Origin: Scilla litardierei
Lineage: Eukaryota; Streptophyta; Magnoliopsida; Asparagales; Asparagaceae
Direction: 5' to 3'
Assembly: GCA_030789695.1 (NCBI GenBank)
Contig: JAULAV010002492.1
Coordinates: 1 to 64,000, forward strand
Length of the DNA stretch: 64,000 bases
A program made the position numbers and the translations under genes. Numbering within the stretch: position 1 is the first letter of the stretch; the number at the start of each line of letters is the position of its first letter. The notes below the pieces were generated by a model. It had not been told where the DNA came from. It ran no database searches and saw nothing but the letters and a program-made list of their open reading frames with translations. Positions 16,875 through 64,000 of this stretch are shown here, in pieces.

Positions 16875-16888
16875 GCAAGGTTTTATTT

Positions 16889-18457: not shown

Positions 18458-18465
18458 AAGGACAA

Positions 18466-20690: not shown

Positions 20691-20777
20691 GAAGTTGTTC
20701 CTAGTGATCCAGGTTTACCCAAAGCTTATCCAACCGTTCGCAACCATCCCCATAACCAAATTATTAGAGATATTGGT

Positions 20778-22373
20778 GTGGGTGTTCGAACGATATCAAG
20801 AATTAAAGAATTCTCCCATTGCGCATTCGTCTCTACCATTGCGCCAAAGAACATTCAAGAAGCTTGTGAGGATAGCTCTTGGATAATGGCAATGGAAGAA
20901 GAACTAATGCAATTTGAGAGAAACGAAGTTTGGGAACTTGTACCTCTTCCAAGTGGTCACCAAGCTATTGGGAACAGCTGGATCTTCAAGAACAAGACGG
21001 ATGAAAACGAGGTAATCACACGGAACAAAGCAAGGTTAGTAGCTCAAGGCTACCTGCAAGAGGAATGTATTGATTTCAAAGAATCCTTTGCCCCCGTAGC
21101 TAGATTAGAAGCTATTAGGTTGCTTTTATCTTTTGCATCCCATAAGAATTTTAAATTATTTCAAATGGATGTTAAAAGTGCATTTTTAAATGGATTTGTA
21201 AATGAAGAAGTCTATGTTTCTCAACCTCCCGGTTTTATTCATGAGAAATTTCCCAACCATGTTTTCAAACTTAAGAAAGCGTTGTATGGATTGAGACAAG
21301 CTCCTAGAGCTTGGTATGATCGTATTAAGACCTTTCTTTTGAATTTAGGTTTTAAAATGGGAGAAGTTGATTCTACACTCTTCATTAAAGATTATGAAAA
21401 TGACATTCTTTTGATTCAAGTTTATGTAGACGATATTATTTTCGGTTCAACTAACTTTAATCTTTGTCAAGAATTTTCCAAGTCTATGAAGGATGAGTTT
21501 GAGATGAGCCACATGGGAGAGCTCACCTACTTCCTTGGATTGCAAATTCGACAAATGGAGAATGGCACTTTCATACATCAGACAAAGTACACAGGGGAGC
21601 TAATTAAGCGATTCGGGATGGAATCGTCTTCAAGCAAAAGGACTCCCATGAGTACTACTACTCATCTACACAAGGATGAAAGCGGAAAAGATGTAGACGT
21701 TCGTTTATATCGAGGTATGATCGGTAGCTTACTTTACTTAACCGCTAGTAGGCCCGATATCATGTTTTCCGTATGTATATGTGCTAGATATCAAGCAAGA
21801 CCTAAGGAGTCACACTTGATTGTGGTTAAACGAATATTTCGTTATCTCAATCAATCCCTAGATTATGGGTTACTTTACCCTAAGTCTAGCACGTATGAGT
21901 TAATCTCATATAGTGATGCCGACTTTGCCGGATGCAAGTCCGACAGGAAAAGTACTAGTGGCACATGCCATTTCTTAGGAAATTCCTTAGTTTTTTGGTT
22001 CTCTAAGAAACAGAATTCGGTGTCATTGTCCACGACTGAAGCGGAATATATTGCCGCGGGTCTTGCATGTGCACAAGTTCTTTGGATGAGACACACTCTT
22101 AGTGGCTATGGTGTCAATTGTGATACTTGCCCTATCATGGTTGATAATCAAAGTGCTATTTGTCTTTCCAAGAATCCGGTACACCACTCCCGTACCAAAC
22201 ACATAGACGTGAGACACCATTTTATAAATGATCATGTAGCTAAGAAGGACATCATCTTAGAGTACATTGAAACCCAAAAACAAATTGCCGATATTTTCAC
22301 TAAACCTCTTAAAGAAGATTCATTTGTGAGGTTGCGTGGAGAATTGGGAATTATGGGTGAATCTGAAATCTAG
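20778..22373 (+). pseudogene. Reverse transcriptase-RNase H of the SIRE-like element (open segment of a dead pol)
   Basis: A 531-codon open stretch. RT starts around [21 protein letters not shown]; the finger/palm motifs [15 protein letters not shown] and [14 protein letters not shown] are present and the active site YVDD lies at about 21423. RNase H follows with [24 protein letters not shown] and [20 protein letters not shown], ending with ADIFTKPL and the stop at 22373. All key residues appear intact here, so this part decayed least. It polymerises cDNA in the virus-like particle in live relatives; this copy lacks a complete upstream frame. Confidence 0.92.
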
Positions 22374-22644
22374 ATGCTCAATTTTCATGCTATAACTCCT
22401 TATTGAGCTCATATTCTTAATTGTCCTTCTTCATGTGCTTTATTGTTTTATGAGATTAAGAAAGGCAATTGTGACTTATTTGATTTCATGAGTTTTCGAA
22501 CTTGATTGGAGTAATTTGTGTTTCAATGGATTTATTGTGTTCACAATGATTTTACGATATATTTATGATTAGAGTATAGGTCCTAGGGTGAGTGTTCTTA
22601 TTCTCTGGAATTCTATCTCACTGTGCATTTTTGGACCAGGACAG

Positions 22645-22971
22645 ACGACTGTTTCTCTTTTGACAGTCGACTGCCCTACTCTATATCCTCTATATGAAAA
22701 TTGATATCTTTCTCACAGCCGACTGATGACTATTTTACAGTCGACTGTTAGTTTAACAGGCGACTGCAATTTAGTTATCAGGCGACTGTACTCTCTATCG
22801 AATTTTTACAGTGTTCTCTGTTATTCTTGTGATCTGTATTAATTCTCGGCCAGCCGACTGTTGTGTATATGGCAGTCGACTGTCCAGTGGACAGGCGACT
22901 GCATTATACTTGCCAGTCGACTGCCCATCTTTCTGAGCTTTAATTTTTATCACTTCATACAGTCGACTGTC
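22645..22971. promoter_or_regulatory. Internal palindrome cluster before ORF3
   Basis: CAGTCGACTG and variants (CAGCCGACTG, CAGGCGACTG, CAGACGACTG) recur about 11 times. Centres at about 22855, 22877, 22896 and 22918 step by 22, 19 and 22 bp. The same motif fills the LTR U3. A TATA-like TATTTTATATT follows at 23046-23056, about 80 bp after the last motif. Probably a second promoter inside the element (inference). Confidence 0.7.
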
Positions 22972-23319
22972 TCCTGCTGTGTCGGTTCATGTGATTTGAT
23001 CCAAGCCGTCGATTCCTTGATCCAACGGCTCAGATTGATTTCCCCTATTTTATATTCAGTCGACGAGATCACTCCCCACGTCGATTTTCTCTCTCCTCCA
23101 CTTCGACCGCTCAACTTCCCGCTCGTTTTTCTCTACAAAACCGATCGATTTCGTTTCTTCAACCGTCGATCTCCTCCTATTCGTCGTTATCGATCGTGTT
23201 CTACCGTCGTCTTTGATCTTCCACTCCGCGATCGTCTGTATTCCCTCAGTTGGTTTGCTTTCTCTCTCTTGATCTTCGTTGTTTCCTTTTGTTGCTTTAG
23301 TTCTTCTTCTCTTGTTTCC

Positions 23320-24526
23320 ATGGCTCCTAAACCTAAGGGAAAAGAGAAGATCGTTGCTTCTAAACGACCTAGGCCTCCTAAGAAACTCATTGCCAAGCGA
23401 AAGAAACCCTATAAAGCTCGAACCAAGCATGCCCAATCACACGTGCATTCATCTTCGCCAGGTTATTCTCCTTCTTCTTCGTCGAGTGATGCTCAGCCCT
23501 TGATTCATCGTCTGCGCAAGCCTACTGGTGTTCACATCAGTGAGTCTGCTGCTGAGATCCCTCATGTGTCTCCTTCTGCATCCAGTTCGTCTGAAGAGAC
23601 TCCTACTGTACCCCCCCTCTGATCCCATGGTTCCCGTTTGCCGAGACGATCTTTGTCTGGCAAAGTTTCACTCTCTCCTAGGGATCAACCTACTTAGGGA
23701 GCGGTACATTGCTTTCCCCGCATTCACTGCTGAGAGACTCTCTGACATTCTGTCCGCTACTCACCTGGCCGATCTTTTTCGCTTCTCTCAGAGCGAGTCC
23801 CCCAGAGCCTACCCATTTCTGGTGAAGCTCTTCTATGCGAACCGCGTTCACGGTGAGTATTCGACTACCGGCATCCTTGATATTGTCGTCCAAGGAACCC
23901 ACATTCAGATCACTCCCTCTCTCTTAGGGACTATTCTTAGGATTCCTTCTGTCGGATCCCTCCCCACTGATATCAGCTTTTCCGAGATTGACGATCTTGA
24001 CCAGTCTGTTCTCCGGGATATGTTTTGAGAGGTTCCTTTATCTCTTGATTTGGGTGTCAGATCATCCATGTTCTCTGCACGGGGTTGGGATGTTCACCTA
24101 GTGGTGAAGTCCAACATTCTGCCGAGATATGGATCGTCTGACCAGCCGTCTCAGGATATACTAAAGTGTATGTATGCTATTTTCTCTGGCATGCCCGTGA
24201 ACTGGGCCGGTGTCCTCCTTGATAGGATGGACTAGGTTGAGTTCATGTCCTCGTCTTCTCACATCCCTTATGGTGGTCTTTTGACTCGTGTCTTCCGTCA
24301 CTTTGGTGTTGACTTGACTCGTTACGAGCCCATGCCTTTTGGCCCTCTCCTCGACGCTTCTGCGAAGTCGAAGTCTCTTCGGCTCTACAGACTGCCTCGA
24401 AGAAGAGGAAGACTACTTCAGCTCCATCCTCATCCACTGTGCCTCCAGCTGATTTGCCTTCATCATCATCTGCTCCATCGTCTCGGGATACTCTTTTGTC
24501 GATGATCTCTGGTATTTACCGGCTGT

Positions 24527-24569
<43 letters not shown>

Positions 24570-24788
24570 CATCAGGGAATTCCCTTCCCTGAGGATTTGA
24601 GACAATATCTTCCTCAGCCTCATGTGCCTCCTCAGCCTTCTGGTGTCGTTGAGCCTCCTGGTGTTGCTTCTACACATGATGATGATGATGATGCTTTTGT
24701 TGCTCCTTCTGACCCTCCTCCAGAGGACACTCCTGCTGCTTCAGAGCCTGCTTCCTCGTCCGCAGTCCCTGGAGACGCTCACCCTTAG
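23320..24788 (+). pseudogene. Third ORF after pol (plant 'envelope-like'/transposon-protein domain), frameshifted
   Basis: ATG at 23320 begins a very basic segment (MAPKPKGKEKIVASKRPRPP, then more KR/KK pairs) like a bipartite nuclear signal, then Ser/Pro-rich sequence. A C-run at 23611-23617 shifts the frame. The next part (DDLCLAKFHSLLGINLLRER ... YPFLVKLFYANRVHGEY ... PSLLGTILRIPSVG) follows the pattern of the plant 'putative transposon protein' domain (PF20167-like) annotated as envelope-like in SIRE relatives. Stops at about 24026 and 24233 and a later frameshift end it; the tail is Pro/Asp-rich to 24788. I see no signal peptide or membrane segment. An upstream extension of the frame from 22861 exists but begins inside the palindrome cluster. 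Confidence 0.75.
24529..24567 (+). repeat. (TC)n microsatellite
   Basis: An uninterrupted TC run of about 19 units inside the third ORF; it may itself cause length changes in that frame. Confidence 0.95.
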
Positions 24789-25640
24789 ATCGATGATTTT
24801 GAGTGATGATATATGTTTTGTCTTTGTATGATGGATGATGCTGTATGCGACACTTTTATATATGTATGATGATATACACTTTGATGTCGTCATGATGATG
24901 TATTTTTTTGTTGACCATGATTTACCTTTTTGGGATGGCCATGTTGATGACCATCCGTTGATGTACTCAGCTTCTTTATATATATATATATATGATGTTG
25001 CATCCCTCTCTTGTGTCACACTATGCTATATTGATTAACTTCTGTGTGATGTATGATACATTGTCTCTATGTACGCTTCTTGATGTGCTTTTGAGACTAT
25101 ACACGAATTTGATATTGGTTAATTCATGCTCTTTCGTTGATTTGATGAATTTGTGAAAATTATTTTCATTTTGAATATCTAAAATGTTGATATTGGATTT
25201 CAATTCCATTACTCACATGTGTATATGATGAGATTTTATGAGTTTTTGATTCGATATATCTTTATACTGCTTGATTGTTGTTAGTTCGTATTTTAGCACT
25301 ATTATTGTTGTTGTTATTTACTCCCACCTTTTTTGGATAATGTCATAGGGGGAGAGAAATAAACAAACAAGATTCATAATGGATGTGCTAAGTATGTTTC
25401 TAACGCTTGAATCTAAGATTTTCGTTGCATTAGATTCAGGGGGAGTAAGTTTACAATGAATATGGATTTTATTTCCTAGATTTCTTGAATTAAATTCATT
25501 CATATCTCACTCATTTGCTTCAATTGCTATGTAGATGCTCTACTATTTGTTGACGAACTTGATTGGCATCTATGTAGGGGGAGTAAGTTTTCATTGCGCA
25601 CAACTATTTATCTTTTTGTTTATGTTTGTTTGTCATCATC
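24789..25640. other. 3' untranslated region of the SIRE-like element
   Basis: AT-rich, with a (TA)n run at about 24977-24991. GGGGGAG words occur at about 25349, 25438 and 25575 before the true tract at 25641, like extra polypurine tracts. No ORF. Confidence 0.7.
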
Positions 25641-25654
25641 AAAAAGGGGGAGAA
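25641..25654 (+). other. Polypurine tract of the SIRE-like element
   Basis: AAAAAGGGGGAGAA abuts the 3' LTR. Confidence 0.9.
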
Positions 25655-27471
25655 TGTTGAGTATTGGACTTCTCCCTACTTGGTGTTAATGATGAGAAAA
25701 CATAAATACTTGTGACTAATCCCCTATTTTGCAGTTAATCCATTGACTAAGCTTACTATGAAGATCAACTAGCAATGGATGACTCACAAACATGATTGAA
25801 GGTAAATGATATGAATTGGATGATCGTAGATTGATGATTGAAGCTCCGTAAAGACTTCAAGCTCATACGATGGAAAGAAGAGATTATTCGTCAATGTAAT
25901 TTTTCTTTTATCTCTTCTAGTATGTAGCTTAGAAGTAGAACTATGATGGAGCACTCACACACATCTACTTTCGGTCATAGGACATCTCTAGACCTTTGTC
26001 CTTTGATCTCAATTCAATTCTCTTTTGTTTGTGCTAGGATTGTTCATAACAGCCGACTGCTTAACAGTTTACAGTCGCCTGTCTCAAAAACAGTCGACTG
26101 TGTTTTGTTCTACAGTCGCCTGTTATGCACAGACTATTACAATGCAGTTTTTGGGTCCTCTCTGATTATCTCGCACAGGCTACCGTTGAACGTTTATCAG
26201 GTGCCTGTCTTAGCGACAGTCGACTGTGAATGGTTCATCAGTCGCCTGTCTCTCCTTGCCCAAACTCTGTTTGAACCGATTTCTACTGCCAGTCGACTTA
26301 TGCTGAATATACAGTTGACTGTCTATTAGATCAGTCGACTGTCTATGCTGCAACAGTCGTCTGTCTGTAAGTCTATTCTTTGACTCTGCTCTCTAGAAAT
26401 TTCTCATGTCTGTGACAGTCGTCTGTTTAAGGATATACAGTCGCCTGTTCTGATTGACAGTCGACTGTGTTCCTTGCATCAGTCGTCTGTCCTGTATCTT
26501 GTGAGATTTCCAGTATTTTATCTAACTTACTTTTCTCTCGGCCAGTCGCCTGTCGAAGAATGTACAGTCGCCTGTTGGTTTTACAGACGACTGTCTTGGC
26601 TTCATCAGTCAACTGTCCACGTGGTAAGTTACCGTTATGAATTCTCACCTACCCTTGCTGACTGTGCAACAGTCGACTGTGGTTTGTTCAACAGTCGACT
26701 GTCGCGAGTACAGATTATATCCGTTGAGATTTTTCTCACGGATTTCGATTGGGTTTTTGCCTAAACTGTTTTGTGGATTTGAGAAAGCTATAAATAGAGC
26801 TTCTACTGTTCCATTGGAAGGTTACTCATTCATTGCAAAATCCTTCAAGCTTTCTTTTCCAAAGATCAAAGCTTTCAAATCCAAAGCCCTAAGTATTTCC
26901 AAATCTTGTTCTCTTGCCCTCCAACCTAGAACCAAAGATTGATCTTCTAGGCATTTGGTGCAGTCAAGAGAAAGTGCTTTTCTCCTCTCTTCCAAGAGAG
27001 TTCTTCAACACACATCACACTTCTCCTTCAAGTTCTACTTCAAGGCATAGGTGATTGTAAGTGTTGCTTTCCGATTTTATAACTTATTTATTTGAATTGT
27101 GCTCTCGGTTGTGAGAGTGGTTTTTGCTTGCTCCCTGGTTGTGGGAGTCAAGGACATCGATTGTATTCGATTGCACTTGTAGGGTTGCTACAAGTGGGTT
27201 TTAAGGAAACCTCAAGTTAGAGTTCTAACTTGAGTATCCAGTGGTATCCGGGTGGTAGGGAAGTAGGATTACCAGGAACAAGTCAGGAGTTGACTTGGGT
27301 AATCCGAACCCTTGAAACATTTCTGCGTTTACGTGTGTTTCTTTTTGGGTTGTTTTTCTATTCCGCACTATTTGTTGGATTGCATTTTATTTGGCGTAAA
27401 TTCCTTTTAAATTTGTATAAACACTATTCAACCCCCCTTCTAGTGTTTTCCCCATAGACAGGGTCCTTATA
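25655..27471 (+). repeat. 3' LTR of the SIRE-like element
   Basis: Starts TGTTGAGTATTGG and ends GGGTCCTTATA (CA changed to TA). It is about 98% identical to the 5' copy by eye. More of its palindromes are still perfect than in the 5' LTR. Confidence 0.95.
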
Positions 27472-42394: not shown

Positions 42395-42960
42395 GTCAGG
42401 GCCTCTGCCCTGACCCGGGCTTGGCCAAAGGCCGGCCAGGGCCTCTGCCCTGGCCGGCCAGGGGGCCTGGCCCCCTCGGCCAGGGCCGGCCAGGCCCTGG
42501 CCTCTGCCAGGGCCGGCCGGCCAGGCCCTGGCCACTGCCAGGGCCTGCCGGCCAGGCCACTGGCCGGGGCCAGGGGGCCCTGGCCTCGGCCAGGCCCTGG
42601 CCTGAGGCCAGGGCGCCGGCCCTGGCCTCTGCCAGGGCCGACAGGCCGCTGGTCGGGGCCAGGGCTCCTGCCCTCCTCGGCCAGGCCCTGGCCTGAGGCC
42701 AGGGCGCCGGCCCTGGCCACTGCCAGGGCCGGCCTGGCCCTGGCAGTGGCCAGGGCGCCGGCCCTGGCCTTTGCCAGGGCCGGCAGGCCGGCCAGGGCCG
42801 GCAGGCCCTTGGCCAAGGCCGGCCACTGCCGGCCCGGCCTTGGCCGGCCACTGCCGGCCTGGCCATGGCCGGTCATGGCTTGGCCATGGCCGGCCATGGT
42901 CAAGGCCTTTCGGCGTTGGCCGGACATGGCCCCTTTGGCCATGGCCGGCCACCCCCTTTG
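42395..42960 (-). repeat. Extreme GC-rich GGCCAGGGCC repeat array in the copia leader
   Basis: About 560 bp built almost only from GGCCAGGGCC, CCTGGCC, GCCGGCC and their complements, in both orientations. It lies between the PBS and gag. Long ORFs exist on both strands here because stops are scarce; none has a credible domain. Confidence 0.9.
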
Positions 42961-43204
42961 AATGGGGTTGCCGCACTTTCTTCTCCCCCTTGATGGGGTG
43001 GTCGCCGGTGGTTATTGGCCGTAGCCAACCCCCTCCGCATGAGGAGAGGGGGTGCATGGCCTTCATGGCCCATTTGGCCATGGTGCACATGCACCAAATT
43101 TTCCTCTTACCCGATGGAAATAACTTCCATCATCTTCCTCGATGAAGCACCCGTTCGTCGAAGAAATTAGTTATCTCTTAATGGCCGTGTGCCAAAAATG
43201 AATA

Positions 43205-47053: not shown

Positions 47054-47412
47054 TGAGATTGGTCGTCCCGAATTGTAACTCCGAAAGCAATGTAGTTTTA
47101 CCGCAAGTGCACAGTTAAGTGGTGAGCGGGTATCGAATCACGGGGAGGAACTATTGGTATCTATATGGATTACTAAGCTATTGTGAAATGGTGACGAAGA
47201 AATGTTGGTGTCACAAGCATTCAAAGTGTTGGTTGTAAATTCAATTTATAAGAATGTCTAGCGCTTGGGAATCCCCAGTATAGATGTCAAGAAATCAATG
47301 TGAAACACGAATCTCTATATTACTACTCTTGATTTAGGGTGAACTTGTCGCAGCTAAATTGGGAACCAACGCATGCTCTCGCACTACACAAGTCTATTAT
47401 AATCTAAACTAA

Positions 47413-47613
47413 AGGCTCACTCTTGAGCAAGCCTAGTTCAAACTACTAGCATTAAGATCGACAATAATATCCAATTCCAACTCAAGCTCGCTCTCGTGCA
47501 ACTTAAGTTTGAATCTAGAGCGTGATAGTTCGTATCCATTTTACCGTCGTACAAACGAATATAATTATAGAAATATAATAAAGATGCTAGCTTTGGTCGC
47601 TCTTGCGCACCAA
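47413..47613 (-). other. Four short hairpins in the older Athila LTR leader
   Basis: Arms AGGCT/AGCCT (47413-47434), AACTCAAG/CTTAAGTT (47479-47509, one mismatch), TTCGT/ACGAA (47529-47559) and TTGGT/ACCAA (47593-47613). Three loops contain CTCTTG or CTCTCGTGCA. They lie 490-690 nt after the TATA box, as in the young Athila LTR. Confidence 0.55.
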
Positions 47614-48097
47614 TTCTAGGGAATCTCTATTATAGATCTAAATCGAATATCTAGGTCTTTCCTTAGATCAAGATCCTCTCTCGAGCTCCGAAGATCCAAT
47701 AGAAATCCCTAGCTATCTGTAGTAAATCAATCACAACCTAACCCTTAACAAGCTTAGCGACATGACAATTCAATAGATATCACAAATCATACTTTAGATC
47801 CTCAGGGTTTATCCCTTTGCCTTAGAGCAAAGAGACTACTCACAATTCATCATAAAAATCACAATAGAAATAAGATGTGCAATAGAATTCATCACAAAAC
47901 TCAGATCTAGAAAGAAATATAGCATAAAAATATCAACTTGCAAGAGTTTTAGACAAACCAATTTGAGTACAAGCTTCAAGAGTAAGAAAATTAAGATCTT
48001 CTCTCCAATTCTTTCGCCAAAAGAAAACTAGAACTCAAATAAAAACTCAGAAAATTATTCTAAGGAGTCTTCCTTTGGGCTGGCAATAAAACTGGGT

Positions 48098-48185: not shown

Positions 48186-48545
48186 CACTCGGCCGAGTGA
48201 ACTGCTCACTCGGTCGAGTGAGAAATCTGCAGGAAATAAGGACTTTCAGCGTTTTGGAAGTACAGACCACTTGGCCGAGTAGTCTGCTCACTCGGTCGAG
48301 TGATATTGTTACTCGGTCGAGTGGGAGAGACTGCAAATCCTCTCTTAAAACAGAGAAGCGCCAAAGAATTTCTTCACATTTTTTATCTCCACTTGGTCGA
48401 GTGGGATTCTACTCGGTCGAGTGGAAATTCCCACTCGGTCGAGTACATTGTGCCTCTTCTTTAGGCTGGATTGGGTGTGTCAGCTTCACTGGGTTGAGTG
48501 TGCTGTTTCACTCGGTCGAGTGAGCTGCGTCACTCGGTCGAGTAG
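48186..48545. promoter_or_regulatory. Cluster of ACTCGGTCGAGT palindromes
   Basis: About eleven copies, mostly CACTCGGTCGAGTG, some GGCC-centred. They come in groups of two or three with centre steps of 21 (48192, 48213), 21 and 21 (48274, 48295, 48316), 20 and 22 (48396, 48416, 48438), 22 and 22 (48493, 48515, 48537). Confidence 0.85.
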
Positions 48546-48846: not shown

Positions 48847-50725
48847 AAATCCACCAAGCTTACCTCTTACTCGTCCTCGAGGAAGATAAGTAAAAAGTGA
48901 ACTTGGCGAATAAAATAAAGAAAAATCAAATAGATGAAAAAGAAGATAAAGAAGAAAAGTGCTAGATTGTTCTCTCAGAATTTGGGTTTGCTTACTCAAA
49001 TTGCACCAGCAACGAATACAAACATCGCTAAAGCTTTTATTTCGATGTCATTTCATATGGGTACACTTGATAGAAAAACTAAGAACAATGTGAATCATAT
49101 GAAATATGAAATCATTTTAGAATCAAACATCATCTAAGGCATAGAAAACGAAATACATAATTATAGACGACACAATTTTCAATTGACTGCTTCTATTTGG
49201 AGTATAAGAGATATCACACAATTCAAGTCAATAAGAATAGAAAGAGATGGTTTTCATGAATTTCATGCCAATTTTTCAATTCATAGATGTCGTTATACTC
49301 TAAGTCATTTCCCTAAGTATCAGAAATTACCTAGCTTAGATCGTCATGCACATATAAGTAGTTACTCTCTCACACATCATTGGATCTCCTCCCCCAAGCT
49401 TATCTATAAGCGTGGTGGCATCAAATAGAAAACATGAGCTTTTTCCCAATTTTTTTGTGGCTCCATATATATAAAAAAGGAAAATAAGAAAGAAGTAAAG
49501 AAGGTGATTGTGTATATACAATGAAACTTTTCTTCTTTTTTCTCTCTTTTTTATACATAAGAACAATCCCAAAGAAAGATGCAAAGATATAAAATTTTCT
49601 TTTATTTTGAGTTTTTGGGATTATGGAGCTTATTTCTTTTTAGCATGGGGAAGGTGTAATAATAAGATTCACTTAAGGGGAGTTTCATAAATGATTATAT
49701 TTATAGAAATATTTTTCAAGATATGTGGAGAAAGAATATATGATAACGCTCGGTTCACTCTTTTTGTATGTGCACGACAACTTCAACATGGTAATGTCAT
49801 CTACTCAGTTTGATTTCTAAAAGTAAACTAATCTATTCATATCAAACAACAATCAATTCATTCAACCTGGAAGTTTAATACACATTTCATGCAATTAGAA
49901 GTGATATTAAGATACAAAGCAGTACTCCAAGTAATAGATGGTCAATGCGTAAATCTTGGTGTGTTTTCTATAAAAAAGTATACAATGATGTAATTCTCAG
50001 ACGAGTCAATGCTAAAATTCATTCAGGGACAAATAATAAACACGTTGAAAGTTTTTTTCTCAAGTGCACGACAAATATATCGCAGATGATATCAGAAATA
50101 AAAACAATAGCATGACAAGAGATATGTGCATAAGAGTAAAGAGAAATCCAAGCTATATTCATCATAAGGAATTCATCTCTTGCAAAGAAAGTAAAAGAAG
50201 TAAGGATAAAATAAAATCTAACTATACACATGCAAGCACTCCAAAAATGAAAAAAACATGATGCATGGCAAAAAAATGAAAAAGTGCGTGATAATAAGTG
50301 GAAAATAAAGAAAAGTGAAAAATAAAGATAAAAATAAAGAAAATAAAAAAGTGTATGAGCACACTCACTCCCCCAAGCTAAACATCACATTGTCCTCAAT
50401 GTGCGAAGTGTGGCACTAGGACATATAAGATAGGGGGTGGGTGGGTGTGGATGCAATATGAAGCGAAATAAAGGAAATTAAGGAAAATAAAATATGATAT
50501 GATGGTATATACAAAGGATATATGTAAGGCAAGCATGCAAAATGATATATGGATGGATGCAAGATGGTGGCCCAAAAATACATACTCTCTCCCAAGCTGA
50601 AATATACAGTGCCCTGCAAAAAGGTGAAGACAGATGTGCATACAAAATAATGGGGTTAGATGTGAAGCAAAAATATGACAGGCATCAAGAAGACGTGCCT
50701 ACTCTGGTGTATCGCCATTACCTCC
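48847..50725 (-). other. 3' untranslated region of the older Athila element
   Basis: AT-rich. Blocks here match the young Athila 3' region: CTCGTCCTCGAGGAAGATAA near 48870, CTCCCCCAAGCTTATC near 49388, CTTGGTGTGTTTTCT near 49957, CCCCCAAGCTAAA near 50371. It contains no ORF of note. Homologous order proves common descent with 53603-55559. Confidence 0.75.
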
Positions 50726-51739
50726 CTACTGTGGGAAAGGTGGTTGCTGAGCGGCTCGCTGTTGAGGGGCTCGCTGCTGCTGCTGCAGGCGGTGAAGATT
50801 CTGGTTCAGCGTGAGCTGCATACTAGGAATCATGGCAATATAGGCCTGCTGAGCAGTGAAGGCCACCGTAAGAGCCCTAAAGTCAACTCTAAGTCCAGTC
50901 ACTGTCGACTCGACATCGCTGAGGCGTTGCTCTCTATCGTCAGGAGTAGAGGTAGAGGAGCATGGAGGTGTATGAGCAAGGGGTTTCACACAGCCTCCAA
51001 AAACTAGTGGGGCCACTATTGGGTGTGTAGGGGAGCAGAGCTCACAACAAGATGCTCAGCCTCCCGAGGAGGCTGAGACACGGGAATGCTCTCAGAAATA
51101 TGTGCAACATAGGTGGAGGTCGGAATATCAACAGAGGACGAGGCAGGCTAAGAGGTCGTGGCAACAGCTGTGGTGACAGACACCACGACACTCTCGGTTT
51201 ATTTGGCGACGGTAGCAACTGAAACGTCAACTGATGGGGGTGGTCATGAAATCAGGAGATAATGACACCGCAAGATTCGAGAAGTCAGGTGTGTCGAGGG
51301 CTCTGCGGTCGTGGAGGAAGAATGGTCGCCTCTCTCAAAAGTGGTGTGGACAACACTCTCAAACTTATATATGAAATCGGATCATCTCTCAGCGGTGCGG
51401 TGGTGGTGGTATCAGACATAGCGGCAGAAGTGGAGCTCTTGGCATGAGCATAAGTGAAGACAGATGTGCCGGGCTTGGGGATCAGATCAGAGGCAGGCTG
51501 GGGAATCGGGACCTCAAGGATGAAGGGCGAGGCATGGGGCACCTGCTGCTCTCGTCGGGCTCTAGTACATATACAGGTGGGATGAGGAGGTTCATCTGGA
51601 ACCTCCACTCTGCACCTGCTGGTCTAATATGGGTCTGAACGGGGCTCAGAAGCACTATATAATCAGCTGAGAAGGGACCATGTAACCAGACCCAATGACA
51701 CTGTCTGTGAGGGCGGATTATGTGCATACGGGCCAAAAC
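50726..51739 (-). pseudogene. ATHILA-type ORF of the older element, C-terminal half, broken
   Basis: Minus strand pieces: 51736-51482 (ARMHIIRPHRQCHWVWLHGP ... NLLIPPVYVLE) aligns with residues about 345-400 of the intact protein at 55560-57743 (HWVWLHGPYGADYMI, ILIPAAYVLE). 51608-51285 is a shifted Pro/Thr-rich part. 51016-50726 is the C-terminal helix-rich part (DVESTVTGLRVDFRALTVAF), which matches LEGAVSGLRGDLRTLSSTV in the intact copy. Frameshifts separate the parts, and the N-terminal half is lost because a SIRE-like LTR enters at 51740. Confidence 0.85.
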
Positions 51740-51788
51740 TGTAGTGACCCTGTGCTATGAGGAATAAACACTAGATGAGGGTGAATAG
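51740..51788 (-). repeat. SIRE-like LTR, minus strand, outer end (first piece)
   Basis: On the minus strand it reads ACTATTCACCC...CTAGTGTTTATTCC ... AGGGTCACTACA, which matches the end of the SIRE-like LTR at 16812-16860. It continues at 63712 beyond the Athila insertion. Confidence 0.8.
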
Positions 51789-52146
51789 TGATCGCTCCGG
51801 GACGTAACCCAAAAGAACGGTTGTAGTTTTACCGCAAGTGCACGGTGTAGCAGCGAGCGGGTTATCGAACACAGGGAGGACGAATGACCGTGCTTGCTCT
51901 AATCAACCTGGCTATTCAAGAAGAGAGATTTGCCTTTGGCGATCCTGTCACAATCGTCAGACAAAGTGCGAAAATATCAAATCAAATAAAGAACGTCTAG
52001 GGAATGGGGAATTCCCGCTACTCACCGTATTTCATGAATGTGGTTCATCGGTATCAAAATCGCTAGAATAAGATTTTGGATGAACTAGTTGCAACTGAAT
52101 GTAGAACCAAGCTCACGCTCTCGCGCTGTTGCCGGTCTATAGCTAT

Positions 52147-52445
52147 CCTAGGCTCGGGTCCAATCTTTTGCAAACCCTAGCCTAGGGAAGCTAGCATTAG
52201 GATCAACATCATCGTCCAATCGCGCACCGAGTCCAATCTCTTGCAAACTCGGCTCACGACCTAGATTGGGATAGTTCCTACCCGTCCAATCTCTTACAAA
52301 CAGGTATTGGCGCGGAATTGAAATCGGAAACCCTAGTATCGGTCCAATCTCTTGCAAACCGATACTACGGAAATTCGATTCCAACCCAATTCGGATTTCT
52401 AGGGTTTCCTATCGAATTGGGATCCAATCTCTTGCAAATCCCAAT
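52147..52445 (-). other. Five hairpins with one conserved 16-nt loop (3' LTR)
   Basis: On the plus strand each loop is TCCAATCTCTTGCAAA (two copies with one change). Arms: CCTAGGCT.GGG (52147-52186), CCGAG/CTCGG (52227-52252), TACCCG/CGGGTA with one change here (52279-52306), TAGTATCGG/CCGATACTA (52334-52367), ATTGGGA/TCCCAAT (52416-52445). They lie 400-700 nt downstream of the TATA-like box, so in the RNA leader. Confidence 0.9.
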
Positions 52446-52836
52446 CGATGTGAATTCCTAGCCATCCGTAGTAAATCAATCACAATCTAATCCCTAGTAA
52501 CAATTCTAGCAAAATTTCTACTAATTCATCACAAGTATGAAATTGGGCTCGTAGGGTTCATCCCCACGCCCCAAGACGTGGCGACTACTCGCAATTCATA
52601 GCAAGATCACAAAAATAATCAATGAAATAAGCAATAGAATTCATCAAAATATTGAGATATGCAATAAAAATAGAATTTTTAGGGAAAAGAGATGCAAACC
52701 AATGGAGTTCTTCAATTAATCCAACAAAAATCAAACTTTATCTCTTCTCCAATCTCCAAAATAAAGATAAAAAGTTAATCTAAAAAGCTGCAAAAAATCT
52801 AAGAAGAAGCTCTAAAAACTAGGGTAAAAACAGGGG

Positions 52837-52843
52837 TTAAATA
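52837..52843 (-). promoter_or_regulatory. TATA-like box of the young Athila LTR
   Basis: Minus strand GGCTATTTAACCCC. It is 83 bp from the first palindrome at 52927. Confidence 0.5.
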
Positions 52844-52926
52844 GCCCCCAAAATCGTCCAAAAACTGTGACCAAAATACCCCTGCGCAGCCTATTTTCCG
52901 CAATTTTCGCTACAGGCAGCGCATCG

Positions 52927-53310
52927 CACTCGGCCGAGTGACAAAAGTCGCTCGGCCGAGTGAAAACCCTGTAATTTTCCAGTAAGTATCGATCTTCAGG
53001 GGTCTTCATTTCGGGGGCGGCTCGGCCGAGTGAGTTGTCGTCACTCGGCCGACGGCTTCATGGTACTCGGGCGGACGGGATAAGCCACTCGGCCGAGTGG
53101 GTCTTCTGAAGCTCAGGCAGCCGAAAAACAGTAACTTGGGGATTATTGAAGGGCTTCGTCTGGGCGCCACTCGGGCGGACGGGGTCTCGTCACTCGGCCG
53201 ATGTGGTCTCTGTCGCTCGGCCGAGTGCACATAGAAATCGTGTCTGAACTGGTCGGCCGAGCGGTGTCTCGCTGGTCGGCCGAGTGGCTCCTCCACTCGG
53301 CCGAGTGGGA
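52927..53310. promoter_or_regulatory. Cluster of ACTCGGCCGAGT palindromes (3' LTR)
   Basis: About eleven full or half copies. Centre steps: 22 (52933, 52955); 23, 22, 22 (53025, 53048, 53070, 53092). The 5' LTR cluster (63031-63414) is the same apart from point changes. Confidence 0.88.
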
Positions 53311-53602
53311 CACAAAACATGCCCAATCTGCTTATTTTGGCCTCCTCGTCGCTCCTGCGACGTCCGTTCTTCTTCCGCTCCTCTCCAACAGCAAAATACC
53401 CCTCGGGGAGGTCGTCGGTGACCGTCTGGAGTAGGTGTATCTCGAGATCACTCCAAATCGCGCCAAATCACCTGAAATGCGACAAAAACAACAAATCGTG
53501 AAAAGCATCGCAATATCGTCGATATATCGTGAAAAACATGATTTGGGCGATCTAAATGGCATGCAAACATGCGGGAAAAAAGTGTAAAATATGGAGTGAT
53601 CA

Positions 53603-55559: not shown

Positions 55560-57743
55560 CTAGGAAGGTGGTGCTGCACCGTCTCCGTCCTGAGGCGGAA
55601 GTGGTGGTGGTGGCTGGACAGGCCGCTGAGCGGGTGTGGGTGTGGAAGTGGTAGCAGGTCGAGTGTGTGTGGAAGTGTGGGCGGGAACCTGCTGGGTGGG
55701 TGGGGGTACGCGCGGGAGACGCTCCAGGACCTGAGTAAGATAGTAGTGAATCTGGGGGATCAGGTCAAAGCGGGCAGCCATCGCAGAGACGGTGGAGGAC
55801 AGGGTCCTAAGGTCGCCTCTGAGGCCACTCACCGCCCCCTCTAGAGCACGAATGCTCTGAAGTATAGTGTCAGGGGGAGGTGGTGCAGAGGGACACACCG
55901 GTCGGGGCTGTGCAGGGCGTGGCTGGCGTACTCGAGTCGCGTATGCGACGGGCTCAGCGGGGAAGGGTACAAAAGGTGCTGCGCTCGCAAATGTGGGCCT
56001 GGCCTCGGTGTGAGGCCGGGGCACCGGCCGGTGAGAAGCAGAGGCAGCAGCAGCGAAAGAAGAGTATAAAAGAGGCAGCGAGGCGGCCGGAGAGGTCGGT
56101 GGCACAGAAGTGTGGATAGACGCCACGACACTCTCGGAAAATACAGCAGGGGTGGAGACAGAGGTGACTACCGCTGGGGTGGAAGTGTGTGGACCAAAAG
56201 GCGCAACCCCAGCGGAGATCATGCTAGCCATGGTCTCCACGACCGCGGCAAACGAGGGCTCTCCACTCTCAACAAAGGTCAGTGGGCGCTCGGGGAGTGC
56301 GGAGCAAAGAGGCTCGACGGACAGAGGGCCAGTGGTGGTGGTGGGAGTGGTGGTGACAGCCTCGGAAGTGGTGGAGGTGGTGGAAGTGGGCTCAACTGAG
56401 GTACTCCCGACACCGACAGAGGTGTCAGGAGAGGCGGAAAGATCGGGGATAGGCTGAGGGGCCACAGGGTCAACAGGGGCGGCAGGCTCGGCAGGTGCGA
56501 CAGGGTCTGCGGGGGCAGCGTGGGCGGCGTGGGCCTGCTCGGCCTCCTCGGCCTCGAGCACGTAAGCAGCTGGGATGAGGATATCCATCGCAGGGAGCCA
56601 GTCGACATGGGCTGGTGCAATCTGAGTCCAAGCTGGGCTCGGAAGAATCATGTAATCGGCCCCGTAGGGGCCGTGCAACCAGACCCAGTGACGCTCACCG
56701 TGCAGACGAATCATCTTCATCTGGGCCATAACATCGATCGACAAAGAAGTGGGGCCCGGTACTCGTCGCAAGTCGTCAGGGAAGTCCTCGCCGGTCATAA
56801 GTGCAAGCAAGGTGATCAGGCCGCCGCAGCATATCGGTGAGCGAGCGCCCACCGATACAATAATGCGGTCCAAAAACCAAGCCGCAACATCAATCACGAC
56901 GGCGGGGACCAGCTCATCGCCATCCCTAGATAGAGCTCTGGGACGTGTCATCACGTAGAGCATGTAGAGCTCCGGCGTAGACATCGTGCCCGGCTCATAT
57001 CTGGCCAAAAATGTCGTCGCCATAAGGCGCTGAGCAATGCGGAGGCAGGGATGAACAATGGCCGAGGCCTTGGCCCTACTAGGGTCAAAGGCAGCGTGAA
57101 GACCCGTAATCCGGGCCCAGAAGGCACCGGCGTCGAAGGAAGGTGGGGGGATATGGGTGGGGCCGTAACCGCGATCGGCACCGGGGACAGCGGGCCACGA
57201 GAAAAACGCTCTCATCATATCGAGAGTGACCTGGCACTCCCGATCCATGAACCGGAACGAGCATCCCTCGTCGGTCCGGGCGATCGAACTAAGAATCTCA
57301 AGTGTCGGGCGGGTGAACGTGTCCGCCGACACCTGGAAGAAATCTCGCCAGCCCACGTTGTCGTACAACGTGAGCATCCCCTCTAGTACCCCCAGGCGTC
57401 CTAGGTCAGCGAGGTGTGCAAACCTGGAGGGTACGATCGAGCGTTGGGAGATACGCTCGAAGACGGCGCGATGTGCGTCGTCTCGGAATGTAATCCCGAG
57501 CGGCCCGACCAGTGGAGCCGGAGGTGGTGGCTGTGCGGCGGGGAGTGGCTGTGCGGGCTGTGCGGGCTGTGTGGGCACTGCAGGCTGTGCGGGGTGTGCG
57601 GGGCCTGCAGGCTGTGCTGGGTGGATGGGGTGTGTGGGGGACGGTGGAGGAGAGTCCTCCAACTCGTGGGAGGGGCCGGCATCATCCGACCGCTTCCGCT
57701 TGGCGGAAGCTCTCTTCGACCGCGGCCGTGTCCGGTGCGGCAT
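55560..57743 (-). CDS. ATHILA-type (ORF1/env-like) protein, intact, 727 aa
   Basis: Start MPHRTRPRSKRASAKRKRSD gives a basic, nuclear-signal-like N-terminus, then a Pro/Ala repeat (PAQPAGPAHPAQ). The core, about residues 85-400, includes FERISQRSIVPSRFAHLADL, SFRFMDRECQVTLDMM and RHWVWLHGPYGADYMI, in the style of the ATHILA ORF family (PF03078). Then a Thr/Ser/Pro-rich stretch and, near residues 630-690, a heptad-like helix (ALEGAVSGLRGDLRTLSSTV). No signal peptide; one mildly hydrophobic stretch (CCGGLITLLALMTG). The role is unknown in the family; 'envelope-like' is only a label. It is the only uninterrupted ORF of the element although polymerase is lost, which suggests selection or recent origin. 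It may be expressed from the promoter-like cluster at 58290-58640. Confidence 0.85.
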   Translation of the reverse strand: MPHRTRPRSKRASAKRKRSDDAGPSHELEDSPPPSPTHPIHPAQPAGPAHPAQPAVPTQPAQPAQPLPAAQPPPPAPLVGPLGITFRDDAHRAVFERISQRSIVPSRFAHLADLGRLGVLEGMLTLYDNVGWRDFFQVSADTFTRPTLEILSSIARTDEGCSFRFMDRECQVTLDMMRAFFSWPAVPGADRGYGPTHIPPPSFDAGAFWARITGLHAAFDPSRAKASAIVHPCLRIAQRLMATTFLARYEPGTMSTPELYMLYVMTRPRALSRDGDELVPAVVIDVAAWFLDRIIVSVGARSPICCGGLITLLALMTGEDFPDDLRRVPGPTSLSIDVMAQMKMIRLHGERHWVWLHGPYGADYMILPSPAWTQIAPAHVDWLPAMDILIPAAYVLEAEEAEQAHAAHAAPADPVAPAEPAAPVDPVAPQPIPDLSASPDTSVGVGSTSVEPTSTTSTTSEAVTTTPTTTTGPLSVEPLCSALPERPLTFVESGEPSFAAVVETMASMISAGVAPFGPHTSTPAVVTSVSTPAVFSESVVASIHTSVPPTSPAASLPLLYSSFAAAASASHRPVPRPHTEARPTFASAAPFVPFPAEPVAYATRVRQPRPAQPRPVCPSAPPPPDTILQSIRALEGAVSGLRGDLRTLSSTVSAMAARFDLIPQIHYYLTQVLERLPRVPPPTQQVPAHTSTHTRPATTSTPTPAQRPVQPPPPLPPQDGDGAAPPS

Positions 57744-58289
57744 ATCGGCCCCGAGCGCGCGCCGAAAAAACGTGAAAAGTGTGGCGTGTGAAAAATAATG
57801 GAAAGAGTGTACCCCGACACGCCGCGAGTGCTAAGCAATGGAAGCGTGCGAAGTCAGCGCCTCCACGAAGCTCAAATCAGTCCCGAGAAGCTCCCCTGGG
57901 CTCCCCTAAGCTCCCAAAAACAACCTGCGCATGAAATGGCGATATCAGCGGGTAATATTCAAAACGTATGGAGCATTAGGGGTGTAATAGATAGATATAG
58001 GAATTGATTTGGGTTAGGGGGTCGTTTAACACATGGATCCTCGAAGAATACACAAAAAGAGGCGAAAAGGGGTGAAATAAGCAATACCGGAGGTGGCCGG
58101 AGACACGGCCGCCGGCGGCGACTCGGGCGAGGCACGTCGAGTGGTCGGCCGGCGGTGGCTGGCCGAGCGGCGGCGTGGCAACGGAGGTCGGGCGAGTAGG
58201 GGGTGCGAGCGGGCGAGGGAAGCTGAAAGGTCGGGGGTGCGAGCGGGCGATTGGATTTTAGCGTTTCGAAAAACGTGCCCCCCTCGACC
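57744..58289 (-). other. Leader between internal promoter-like cluster and the ATHILA ORF
   Basis: Minus-strand leader of about 550 bp, with short ORFs (for example 58026-58451, low-complexity). If the internal TATA is used, this is the 5' UTR of the ORF transcript. Confidence 0.4.
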
Positions 58290-58640
58290 TCTTATATAGC
58301 AAAATTTACGACTCGGCCGAGTGACTTGGCCACTCGGCCGAGTACGGTCAATAGAAAATTCCTCCCCGCTTATGCATCGGCCGAGTGGCCTTGCCAGCCT
58401 CGGCCGAGTGGAGTAAGTCCATTCGGCCGAGTGGCTCAAGCTACTCGGCAAGACTCGCCCTAGGAGTGTATCCGTTTTACTCGGCCGAGTGAAAATATAT
58501 ACTCGGCCGAGTAGCAGTTATACTGAAATCAGGAAAATATACAGAGAGTTGGGTACAGCAGACTTCCCTCGTTCGTGAGCGGCTCGGCCGGACGAACTTG
58601 TGTACTCGGCCGAGTGACTAGTATACTCGGCCGAGTGAGC
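58290..58640 (-). promoter_or_regulatory. Internal palindrome cluster and TATA box before the ATHILA ORF
   Basis: TATA box GCTATATAAG (58291-58300, minus) lies 11 bp from the first of about ten ACTCGGCCGAGT palindromes (58311-58640). Centre steps include 21 (58316, 58337) and 23, 23, 22 (58380, 58403, 58426, 58448). The same palindrome fills the LTR U3. Confidence 0.75.
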
Positions 58641-60388: not shown

Positions 60389-61741
60389 TTACTCGACCAT
60401 AAACGTCTCCACTCTAGCTTCGAAGTCGGATCGTTGTTGAGCTTGCGGAGTGTTTTGATTTTGATTCCTCCACCCTTGGTTGTATCCGGGCGGCCTATAT
60501 GGTGGAACTTGTTGCTTCGGTTGGAAATTTTGTTGTGGAGGCCCCCTCGGCGGATAGTTTTGTTGTTGGGGTGGTGGTGGTCGGGCTTGTTGAGGTGGTG
60601 CTTGGGGCGGGTTCAAAGCTCCTTCATTGTTGGCGTAGGAGAATCCGGGATGATTTCTTGCGGCCGGATTGGCCCAATATCCTTGGTTCCCCGCGACATA
60701 TTGTACTTGCTCCAAGGATCCTTCTCCTTGCTCTCCTCCCGAGTACATGGCTTGAGATTGGTCTTGCCAATCGCACATTTGGTTTGTTGGAGCGGAGGTA
60801 GAAGGGGCTCCTTGGGGCTCCGTGATAAACTTCTCCAATCTCTGCACTACCTTGTGGAGAGAATCAAACTTGCTTGTAAGCTCCGCTACGGCCTTCGCCT
60901 CATAGATACTAGTCGGCTTCAAGGAGGACGTGGAGTGTCCTCGCTCATCGCCCCATTGTTGATTGTTTGAGGCCATCTCCTCAATTAGGGCCGTAGCTTC
61001 CTCGGGAGTCTTTGACAAGATAGCACCATTCGCCACGGCATCAATAATTTGTTTGGTCCCCGGTTGGAGACCGTTGTAGAAGCTATGAACTAGCTCCCAA
61101 TCTTCTATGCTATGGTGCGGGCATTGATGCTTCAAATCCTTAAAACGCTCCCAAGCCTCATAGAGCGTCTCCTGTGGTCCTTGCTTGAAGGACATGAGAG
61201 CGCTCCGGATCTTCACCGTCTTGGATGGCGGATAGAACTTGTCAATAAATGCACTCGCCAACTCGTCCCAAGAGGTGAAAACTCCGTCAGCCTGCGTCCT
61301 CAACCAATAGAGTGCCTTGTCCTTTAGCGTGAAGGGGAAGAGACGCAGTCTGATGGCATCAATGGAGACCTCCGGCATCTGAAATGTGGCGCACTTCGAC
61401 AAGAATAATTGGATGTGGTAGTGAGGGTTTTCATGGGCATTCCCATGAAATGGATCCTGCTGCATCAGAACCACTAGTCCAGTTTTTAGCTCGAAGTTCT
61501 TGTCAGCCGCCAACTCCGGCACGGCAATGGATGAGGTCGTAGAAGAGGTCTTAGGCCGAAGCCTATCTCGAATAGAAATTATCCTCGCCATCCTTGCCGC
61601 TAATTGGTCCGCAGTTTCCGGGTTGGTCAAAAACCGCCCTTCTGGATTTTGTCTCCTTTCCGCTCTAAGTCTCTGCGCGGTACGTTCGATCTCGGGATCA
61701 AATAATATAGCTTCAGGGTCCGCCGTAGATCTCGTGTACAT
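60389..61741 (-). CDS. Gag of the young Athila element, 450 aa
   Basis: MYTRSTADPEAILFDPEIER start; retrotrans_gag core at about residues 95-235 (GNAHENPHYHIQLFLSKCAT, ALYWLRTQADGVFTSWDELA, YEAWERFKDLKHQCPHH), then a Gln/Pro-rich region (PQQARPPPPQQQNYPPRG). No zinc knuckle is seen. It ends with TAA (60389-60391); the protease follows in the same frame, so this stop either breaks the former Gag-Pro polyprotein or is passed by readthrough (the latter unlikely with TAA). Forms the particle and packages RNA in relatives. Starts 129 bp after the PBS, so the leader is short. Confidence 0.9.
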   Translation of the reverse strand: MYTRSTADPEAILFDPEIERTAQRLRAERRQNPEGRFLTNPETADQLAARMARIISIRDRLRPKTSSTTSSIAVPELAADKNFELKTGLVVLMQQDPFHGNAHENPHYHIQLFLSKCATFQMPEVSIDAIRLRLFPFTLKDKALYWLRTQADGVFTSWDELASAFIDKFYPPSKTVKIRSALMSFKQGPQETLYEAWERFKDLKHQCPHHSIEDWELVHSFYNGLQPGTKQIIDAVANGAILSKTPEEATALIEEMASNNQQWGDERGHSTSSLKPTSIYEAKAVAELTSKFDSLHKVVQRLEKFITEPQGAPSTSAPTNQMCDWQDQSQAMYSGGEQGEGSLEQVQYVAGNQGYWANPAARNHPGFSYANNEGALNPPQAPPQQARPPPPQQQNYPPRGPPQQNFQPKQQVPPYRPPGYNQGWRNQNQNTPQAQQRSDFEARVETFMVE

Positions 61742-61869
61742 GCACAGGGAAAACAGAGTTTCAAAGAAATGATTAGTACCATGGAAGGGTTAGGTAAAGA
61801 TAAAGAAATGGAAATAATAATAAAATAAAAAAAAGAATAGCTAGGGTGGTAAGATCAAACGCGATCGCC

Positions 61870-61887
61870 TCCCCGGTAACGGCGCCA
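61870..61887 (-). other. Primer binding site of the young Athila element (tRNA-Asp type)
   Basis: Minus strand TGGCGCCGTTACCGGGGA, 6 bp from the LTR. From memory the Athila site is TGGCGCCGTTGCCGGGGA; one base differs. Confidence 0.85.
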
Positions 61888-61893
61888 AAAACT

Positions 61894-63706
61894 TGATCGC
61901 TCCGGGACGTAACCCAAAAGAACGGTTGTAGTTTTACCGCAAGTGCACGGTGTAGCAGCGAGCGGGTTATCGAACACAGGGAGGACGAATGACCGTGCTT
62001 GCTCCAATCAACTTGGCTATTCAAGAAGAGAGATTTGCCTTTGGCGATCCTGTCACAATCGTCAGACAAAGTGCGAAAATATCAAATCAAATAAAGAACG
62101 TCTAGGGAATGGGGAATTCCCGCTACTCACCGTATTTCATGAATGTGGTTCATCGGTATCAAAATCGCTAGAATAAGATTTTGGATGAACTAGTTGCAAC
62201 TGAATGTAGAACCAAGCTCACGCTCTCGCGTTGTTGCCGGTCTATAGCTATCCTAGGCTCGGGTCCAATCTCTTGCAAACCCTAGCCTAGGGAAGCTAGC
62301 ATTAGGATCAACATCATCGTCCAATCGCGCACCGAGTCCAATCTCTTGCAAACTCGGCTCACGACCTAGATTGGGATAGTTCCTACCCGTCCAATCTCTT
62401 GCAAACGGGTATTGGCGCGGAATTGAAATCGGAAACCCCAGTATCGGTCCAATCTCTTGCAAACCGATACTACGGAAATTCGATTCCAACCCAATTCGGA
62501 TTTCTAGGGTTTCCTATTGAATTGGGATCCAATCTCTTGCAAATCCCAATCGATGTGAATTCCTAGCCATCCGTAGTAAATCAATCACAATCTAATCCCT
62601 AGTAACAATTCTAGCAAAATTTCTACTAATTCATCACAAGTATGAAATTGGGCTCGTAGGGTTCATCCCCACGCCCCAAGACGTGGCGACTACTCGCAAT
62701 TCATAGCAAGATCACAAAAATAATCAATGAAATAAGCAATAGAATTCATCACAATATTGAGATATGCAATAAAAATAGAATTTTTAGGGAAAAGAGATGC
62801 AAACCAATGGAGTTCTTCAATTAATCCAACAAAAATCAAACTTTATCTCTTCTCCAATCTCCAAAATAAAGCTAAAAAGTTAATCTAAAAAGCTGCAAAA
62901 AATCTAAGAAGAAGCTCTAAAAACTAGGGTAAAACAGGGGTTAAATAGCCCCCAAAATCGTCCAAAAAATGTGACCAAAATACCCCTGCGCAGCCTGTTT
63001 TCCGCAATTTTCGCTACAGGCAGCGCATCGCACTCGGCCGAGTGACAAAAGTCGCTCGGCCGAGTGAAAACCCTATAATTTTCCAGTAAGTATCGATCTT
63101 CAGGGGTCTTCATTTCGGGGGCGGCTCGGCCGAGTGAGTTGTCGTCACTCGGCCGACGGCTTCATGGTACTCGGGCGGACGGGATAAGCCACTCGGCCGA
63201 GTGGGTCTTCTGAAGCTCAGGCAGCCGAAAAACAGTAACTTGGGGATTATTGAAGGGCTTCGTCTGGGCGCCACTCGGGAGGACGGGGTCTCGTCACTCG
63301 GCCGATGTGGTCTCCGTCGCTCGGCCGAGTGCACATAGAAATCGTGTCTGAACTGGTCGACCGAGCGGTGTCTCGCTGGTCGGCCGAGTGGCTCCTCCAC
63401 TCGGCCGAGTGGGACACAAAACATGCCCAATCTGCTTATTTTGGCCTCCTCGTCGCTCCTGCGACGTCCGTTCTTCTTCCGCTCCTCTCCAACAGTAAAA
63501 TACCCCTCGGGGAGGTCGTTGGTGACCGTCTGGAGTAGGCGTATCTCGAGATCACTCCAAATCGCGCCAAATCACCTGAAATGCGACAAAAACAACAAAT
63601 CGTGAAAAGCATCGCAATATCGTCGATATATCGTGAAAAACATGATTTGGGCGATCTAAATGGCATGCAAACATGCGGGAAAAAAGTGTAAAATAAGGAG
63701 TGATCA
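61894..63706 (-). repeat. 5' LTR of the young Athila element
   Basis: Carries the same promoter parts as the 3' copy: palindromes 63031-63414 and five hairpins at about 62252-62550. Here the third hairpin is fully paired and all five loops read TCCAATCTCTTGCAAA. Confidence 0.95.
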
Positions 63707-63711
63707 AATAG

Positions 63712-64000
63712 TATTTTATAGAATTATACGGAATTTACGCGAAATAAAACCCTAATTAACCAACAAATGCGGAATGAAAGAAATGATCAACAACACAAAG
63801 AACAATGCAATACTAACAAGCAATCTACCCTGGTTCGGTGCCACCCAAGTCTCCCCGACTTGTTACCGGTGCCCTAATCCAGCAACACCCGGATCCCCTC
63901 CGGATACTCTAGCAAACCGCTAGAGATTTCCTTAAGCCCAATTGCGGAAACCCCACAAGTGCAATCGACCTACAATCGATGTCCGTGTATCCCACAACCC
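63712..64000 (-). repeat. SIRE-like LTR, minus strand, second piece, runs off the window
   Basis: Read on the minus strand, ACATCGATTGTA.GTCGATTGCACTTGT, TTAAGGAAA, TATCCGG and TTTTATTTCGCGTAAATTCC align with 16540-16800 of the SIRE-like LTR, with considerable divergence. It joins 51740-51788 across the Athila element. Confidence 0.8.

Follow-up and report, generated by a model that had tools for sequence, protein, structure and literature searches.

Five hairpins with a constant loop and unrelated stems in the long terminal repeat of an Athila-derived element of Scilla litardierei: a possible RNA packaging signal

The 64,000-nt stretch of Scilla litardierei DNA analyzed here (the window) contains an Athila-derived retrotransposon, element A, whose long terminal repeats (LTRs) each carry five hairpins with nearly the same loop on five different stems, which raises the question of what may keep the loops constant while the stems vary, and which molecule could read them. 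Our comparative evidence comes from this window, namely from the paralogous hairpins of element A and from one diverged Athila LTR, relative B. The structure of the array, in which the loop is constant, pairing is kept and the letters of the stems are free, is well supported. As to its function, we tentatively propose a multivalent protein-binding site in the RNA leader, possibly a packaging signal.

Element A runs on the minus strand, and the 16-nt loop in RNA sense is UUUGCAAGAGAUUGGA, the complement of the sequence given in the original prediction, which had read the other strand. When up to three mismatches are allowed, the window holds ten copies of this loop, five per LTR of element A, a number that none of 100 dinucleotide shuffles reaches. 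The predicted invariance of the loop is exact in the 5' LTR (62264-62543), where five of five copies match, but not in the 3' LTR copy that had been reported (52159-52438), where three are exact and two have one substitution each. All five hairpins lie on the minus strand, and in RNA order they are h5 (62521..62550; 3' LTR copy 52416-52445), h4 (62440..62471; 52334-52367), h3 (62384..62411; about 52279-52306), h2 (62332..62357; 52227-52252), and h1 (62252..62291; 52147-52186). Counted outward from the loop in the 5' LTR, Watson-Crick pairs number five in h2, six in h3, eight followed by a G.U in h4, and seven followed by a G.U in h5, while h1 has three, one A.C, and eight more. The 3' LTR copy of h3 is weaker, with a C-G pair of the stem changed to U.G and a C-to-U change in the loop (RNA sense).

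The flanks of the loop had been described as different each time yet complementary, and this is confirmed by swapping the arms of the 5' LTR hairpins in all 25 combinations: the five matched ones form 3-8 contiguous pairs, the 20 mismatched ones 0-2. The joint chance of five matched arms is about 3e-18 at the base composition of the LTR, for stems that were picked after the fact. Between hairpins, either arm shares 1-5 of 8 letters, and on this ground we reject that entire hairpins were duplicated in tandem recently. For a covariation test, the five paralogous hairpins were treated as an alignment with six stem pairs and compared with 500 shuffles; the structure tested was read off the same sequences, which favours it, and this is addressed by the shuffles and by the arm-swap table. 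All six stem pairs change on both sides (matched by 3 of 500 shuffles), paired cells amount to 96.7% (55.6% in the mean of the shuffles), and the covariation score is 1.23 (0.32 in the shuffles), the last two values being reached by no shuffle. Sliding the partner by 1-3 columns lowers the paired cells to 17-43%. On the sense strand of the 5' LTR copy and relative B, 12 G.U stand against 4 A.C (p 0.04, with a score treating both alike), an imbalance that speaks modestly for sense RNA, rather than DNA or antisense RNA, as the selected molecule.

The LTR of relative B (about 47.0-48.8 kb) can be aligned end to end with that of element A. A hairpin scan of its 1-kb leader, which used no motif and was repeated with other shuffles, gave the strongest hairpins at centres 47421, 47493, 47829, and 47605. 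In three of the four B hairpins with z below -3.5, the motif CRAGAG, which is part of the loops of element A, lies within 3 nt of the centre (chance 0.004). In the alignment, these three fall on h1, h2, and h4 of element A, with stems and loops that differ from those of A. They are found on the minus strand at the h1 position (47405..47450, z about -5, apex CUCAAGAG), the h2 position (47475..47525, z about -4.6, apex CACGAGAG), and the h4 position (47585..47630, z -4.1 and -4.7 in two runs, apex CGCAAGAGCG). The B loops are alike among themselves and have CRAGAG with the preceding GC, and little else, in common with the A loops. CRAGAG sites are clustered: a 360-nt span of the 5' LTR of element A has six, of which five are the loops, and B also has six, against 0.32 expected. 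Thus, stems seem to drift with pairing kept, and the loops seem to have changed together between A and B. The suggestion that selection acts on a structure with a recognized loop is backed both by the paralogous covariation and by the aligned B hairpins, although what B supports is the homologous position of the hairpins and their common core, more than column-wise covariation.

Further folds occur around the array. A weak candidate for a sixth hairpin (ACGC-GAGA-GCGU, with the CRAGAG core alone) is located at 62205..62250 on the minus strand (z -1.3 in A, -0.2 in B), and its core is also present at the aligned place in B. A possible further hairpin, with a loop containing GAGAUUGGA, lies near the predicted RNA start (62839..62873, minus strand), and its score in the model search is not significant (E 0.79). 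A strong hairpin without the loop is present 3' of the array in both LTRs of element A (62167, minus strand; 3' copy about 52064; z -3.6 to -5.2). Another aligned pair of hairpins with different stems is seen 5' of the array at 62650-62705 in A and 47795-47850 in B (minus strand), the fold in A being ambiguous.

The position of the array fits the predicted RNA leader. The 5' LTR contains a TATA-like box, TATTTAA, at 62941..62947 of the minus strand (first base 62947), near the TATAAAT of B (first base 48104) in the alignment, and transcription would start about 30 nt 3' of it. The array lies 0.4-0.7 kb downstream of this box and upstream of the primer-binding site (PBS) and gag, and TATA-like boxes upstream of it in both A and B suggest that it is inside the 5' leader of the genomic RNA of element A. 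The original placement in a leader would thus hold, but the copy then reported belongs to the 3' LTR, the predicted leader copy being that at 62252-62550.

Element A itself is bounded by LTRs of 1813 bp (5' LTR, 61894..63706) and 1814 bp (3' LTR, 51789..53602, TGATCACTCC...GGAGCGATCA), both on the minus strand, which differ at 21 positions, have TG..CA ends, and are flanked by a CTATT target-site duplication (51784-51788 and 63707-63711). A few bases past the 5' LTR, at 61870..61887 (minus strand), is TGGCGCCGTTACCGGGGA, which we take to be the PBS usual for Athila elements. Pfam matches were obtained for two of the four open reading frames (ORFs) searched, both on the minus strand: a gag ORF (60389..61741; PF03732 Retrotrans_gag, 1.6e-20) and an Athila ORF in an env-like position (55560..57743; PF03078 ATHILA, 1e-10). 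Neither reverse transcriptase nor integrase was found when the four ORFs, longer versions of two of these and two additional frames were searched (E up to 1), and the interval between 57830 and 58971 measures only about 1.1 kb. Because these two enzymes were not found, element A is probably an Athila-derived, non-autonomous copy rather than a full member. Its flanks (51700-51790 and 63707-64000) resemble the LTR of a second element (15035-27469), which suggests that the insertion of element A took place close to the end of a related LTR, itself next to a B ORF region whose resemblance to the Athila ORF of A was judged by eye; this would be a case of nested insertions.

How could such an array work? 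No complement of the loop with up to three mismatches is present on the sense strand of the window, which makes an intramolecular partner unlikely and a partner acting in trans the simplest reader of the loop. In the mechanism that we propose, RNA would be made from the TATA box of the LTR with the array in its 5' leader, and one trans-acting protein would read all the loops and be bound several times over; letters of the stems would then be free to drift, while the loops would be forced to change together. The reader would most likely be Gag, encoded either by element A or by an autonomous partner. The place of the array puts Gag first among the candidates, and so do the roles of purine loops in mouse mammary tumour virus (MMTV), where such a loop binds Gag (PMC8096270), and in Mason-Pfizer monkey virus (MPMV), where a repeated purine motif acts redundantly (PMC7674771), as described in the portions available to us of these and the other sources cited here. 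The Gag of a partner is considered because searches of copy A gave neither reverse transcriptase nor integrase.

By binding Gag, the array would select full-length RNA for packaging. Directly 3' of a palindrome cluster inside the element, at 58291-58298 of the minus strand, TATATAAG gives the appearance of an internal promoter for the Athila ORF, and no CRAGAG occurs on the sense strand from TATATAAG to this ORF (57743-58290). A transcript of the Athila ORF from such a promoter-like unit would have no 5' array, which would suit a mark of full-length RNA. We hold the packaging signal to be the most likely identity of the array, at somewhat under an even chance. A broader proposal, about which we are rather doubtful, is that LTRs of the Athila lineage may contain a packaging code, a family-specific loop word that changes in concert while the stems drift freely. 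If true, such a code would decide which RNAs a Gag packages, and would thereby separate the families or allow defective copies to hitchhike.

Several results weigh against this proposal or limit it. Stem complementarity was expected to persist in other family members, and in the one diverged relative, B, a strong hairpin is kept at three of the five homologous sites and not at two; no significant hairpin was found at the h3, h5, and h6 (sixth hairpin) sites of B, of which the h5 and sixth sites retain CRAGAG yet fold weakly. When A and B are compared in register, h1, h2, and h4 share 17 paired positions, and both sides differ in five of these. B goes undetected by a covariance model based on A (E 1.4 for the best site in B, 47479-47509); apart from the ten hairpins, this model scores best at 48979-49002 of the plus strand (E 0.02 for 18 kb, 0.07 for the whole window). 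Hairpins with z below -3.5 number five in the leader of the 5' copy of A, six in the 3' copy, and four in B, but ten control stretches have 0-5 per 1 kb and the LTR leader of a presumably Copia-like element has six; since controls and leaders overlap, hairpin strength alone proves nothing. In the 5' copy of A, these five are h1, h2, and h4 plus two that do not belong to the array; z is -3.5 for h3 and -2.6 for h5. The case for the array is made instead by the matching of the arms, by the constant loop, and by the sites aligned in B. With regard to Gag, the CCHC zinc-knuckle pattern was not found in the three minus-strand frames of the internal region of A, unlike in 74 of 120 listed Gag homologues; RNA binding by the Gag of A is therefore uncertain, and the Gag of a partner element might be needed. 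The argument from a mark of full-length RNA would weaken if the 3' copy of the array were also transcribed.

Among other explanations, we consider a nuclear-export or RNA-stability element unlikely. In this case, the loops would recruit a host protein (e.g., TREX components), so that unspliced genomic RNA exits the nucleus. The leader of Cauliflower mosaic virus recruits TREX components, the mouse elements IAP and musD carry structured export elements, and export motifs in plant LTR elements that resemble CAR (cytoplasmic accumulation region) are called unclear (PMC12786077). A multivalent array with a single type of loop suits a host protein as well as it suits Gag. A host ligand would, however, be expected to fix the loop between families, and that of A and B is alike in CRAGAG and little beside.

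Control of translation is less probable still. The array might let ribosomes bypass upstream AUGs by shunting, reinitiation or internal entry, or might bind a repressor, and the leaders do contain many AUGs: A has 11 of them from the predicted RNA start to the AUG of gag, and B has 10 in that part of its leader which belongs to the LTR. Shunting in caulimoviruses, however, relies on one large structure and not on repeated identical loops. Dimerization by kissing loops through the self-complementary hexamer UUGCAA, which is present in all five 5' LTR loops and four of the five 3' LTR loops, appears improbable. In the predicted fold, four of its six bases are paired inside the hairpin, and while the h4 loop of B holds another such hexamer, UGCGCA, the h1 and h2 loops have none, one in three being little above chance. 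It speaks for dimerization that Ty3 RNA dimerizes in vitro via a palindrome located apically in a short hairpin (PMC11381356).

We regard as very improbable that the array is a feature of DNA or small RNA, i.e., a set of palindromic promoter repeats of Sirevirus type or a precursor of short-interfering RNA. With roughly 7-13 pairs, the stems of the array are rather short to be cut by Dicer-like enzymes, and the excess of G.U over A.C on the sense strand also argues against it. Sirevirus LTRs do bear clusters of palindromic repeats (PMC2829016), to which an excess of small RNA maps in maize (PMC10760457), but in these the same palindrome, stem included, is repeated 5' of the TATA box, while the array of A lies 3' of the box and keeps the loop on differing stems. 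In element A, it is the palindrome CACTCGGCCGAGTG, and not the hairpin array, that resembles in layout the repeated motifs of Sireviruses with their CGG-CCG core (PMC2829016), which are reported there as Sirevirus-specific. With up to three mismatches, CACTCGGCCGAGTG occurs 39 times in the window against 1-3 times in five mononucleotide shuffles, and clusters (start positions) in the U3 regions of A (63031-63398 and 52927-53294, nine copies each) and B (48186-48531, 11 copies) and inside A (58310-58624, nine copies), thus 5' of the TATA boxes and, inside A, 5' of the Athila ORF. 

Least probable of all is a functionless mutational origin, in which template switching during reverse transcription, which can turn imperfect inverted repeats into perfect ones, would likewise yield compensating changes in both arms, since this leaves unexplained both five identical loops with unrelated arms and hairpins with a shared core at the aligned sites of B.

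Some further readings were rejected. A protein-coding repeat is ruled out, as the loops fall in two frames. A hammerhead or other known RNA family is not indicated, as no Rfam family matched at cut-off in 61500-64000, where the two matches up to E 5, to a CRISPR-repeat model (E 2.6) and a snoRNA model (E 4.5), both stay below cut-off. A search of the window for pairs of hairpins sharing an 8-base loop word on different stems less than 1.5 kb apart gave no similar array elsewhere, the other pairs being from a G+C-rich stretch (42.4-43.1 kb), the U3 palindromes of B, and chance-like scatter; GGCC-type repeats make up the stretch at 42400-43100, where numerous hairpins overlap. Outside the window, the loop matched exactly once in each of 29 stretches of viral contigs, which we take as chance, and one of 34 outside loci also has two loop-like places with up to three mismatches, 61 bases apart. 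No match was found for the Gag of A in viral contigs, for the double-loop pattern in genome contigs, or for the array in plasmids, and five outside matches to the PBS were judged unrelated because no long repeat flanks any of them. The second LTR element of the window, which we guess to be Copia-like, has LTRs of 1.8 kb (15035-16858 and 25646-27469) that are 97.8% identical and contain 15 and 20 copies of CAGTCGACTG with up to one mismatch; 11 more copies are located inside the element (22642-22960), so that here, too, clusters occur both in the LTRs and internally.

The constant short loop offers a concrete RNA to mutate and a bait for its ligand, and would make packaging signals of plant retrotransposons testable. 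If the loops do change in concert, the array would illustrate a way for related elements to keep their RNAs separate within one genome, and for copies lacking reverse transcriptase and integrase to be carried nonetheless.

The array has partial counterparts in known systems. The psi stem-loops of MMTV and MPMV likewise combine a structured leader with short purine-rich single-stranded sites, which in MPMV are repeated and partly redundant (PMC8096270, PMC7674771). Element A differs from them in having five same 16-nt loops on unrelated stems inside the LTR, and no zinc knuckle was found in its Gag. Retrozymes with their hammerhead ribozymes resemble the array as conserved RNA structures reported from plant LTRs, but no hammerhead match from Rfam up to E 5 was found in 61500-64000. 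Retroviral export elements rely on one or two hairpins and their internal loops, and the constitutive transport element (CTE) of MPMV has constant loops on variable stems; the array in A, unlike these, consists of five separate apical loops. It shares with the CTE, the RNA transport element (RTE) of IAP, and the musD transport element (MTE) the character of a structured element in unspliced RNA (RTE and MTE: PMC12786077). In the LTR retrotransposons Ty1 and Ty3, packaging or dimerization signals are also situated towards the 5' end of the RNA, within the first 580 nt in Ty1 (PMC4974528, PMC11381356), but the available parts of these sources describe no repeated constant-loop hairpins, and packaging sites are not precisely defined in them. 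The palindromic repeated motifs of Sireviruses share with the array that symmetric repeats are clustered in the LTR of a plant element (PMC2829016). In the literature searched, as far as its accessible text goes, we came across no packaging or export signal described for a plant LTR retrotransposon, and titles and abstract starts on Athila or Sirevirus LTR structure, packaging, and covariation, most subscription journals lying outside this coverage, mention no such array. Structured leaders with repeated protein sites are already known, while an LTR array with a constant loop on free stems, and loop words that differ between two families, are new as far as we have seen.
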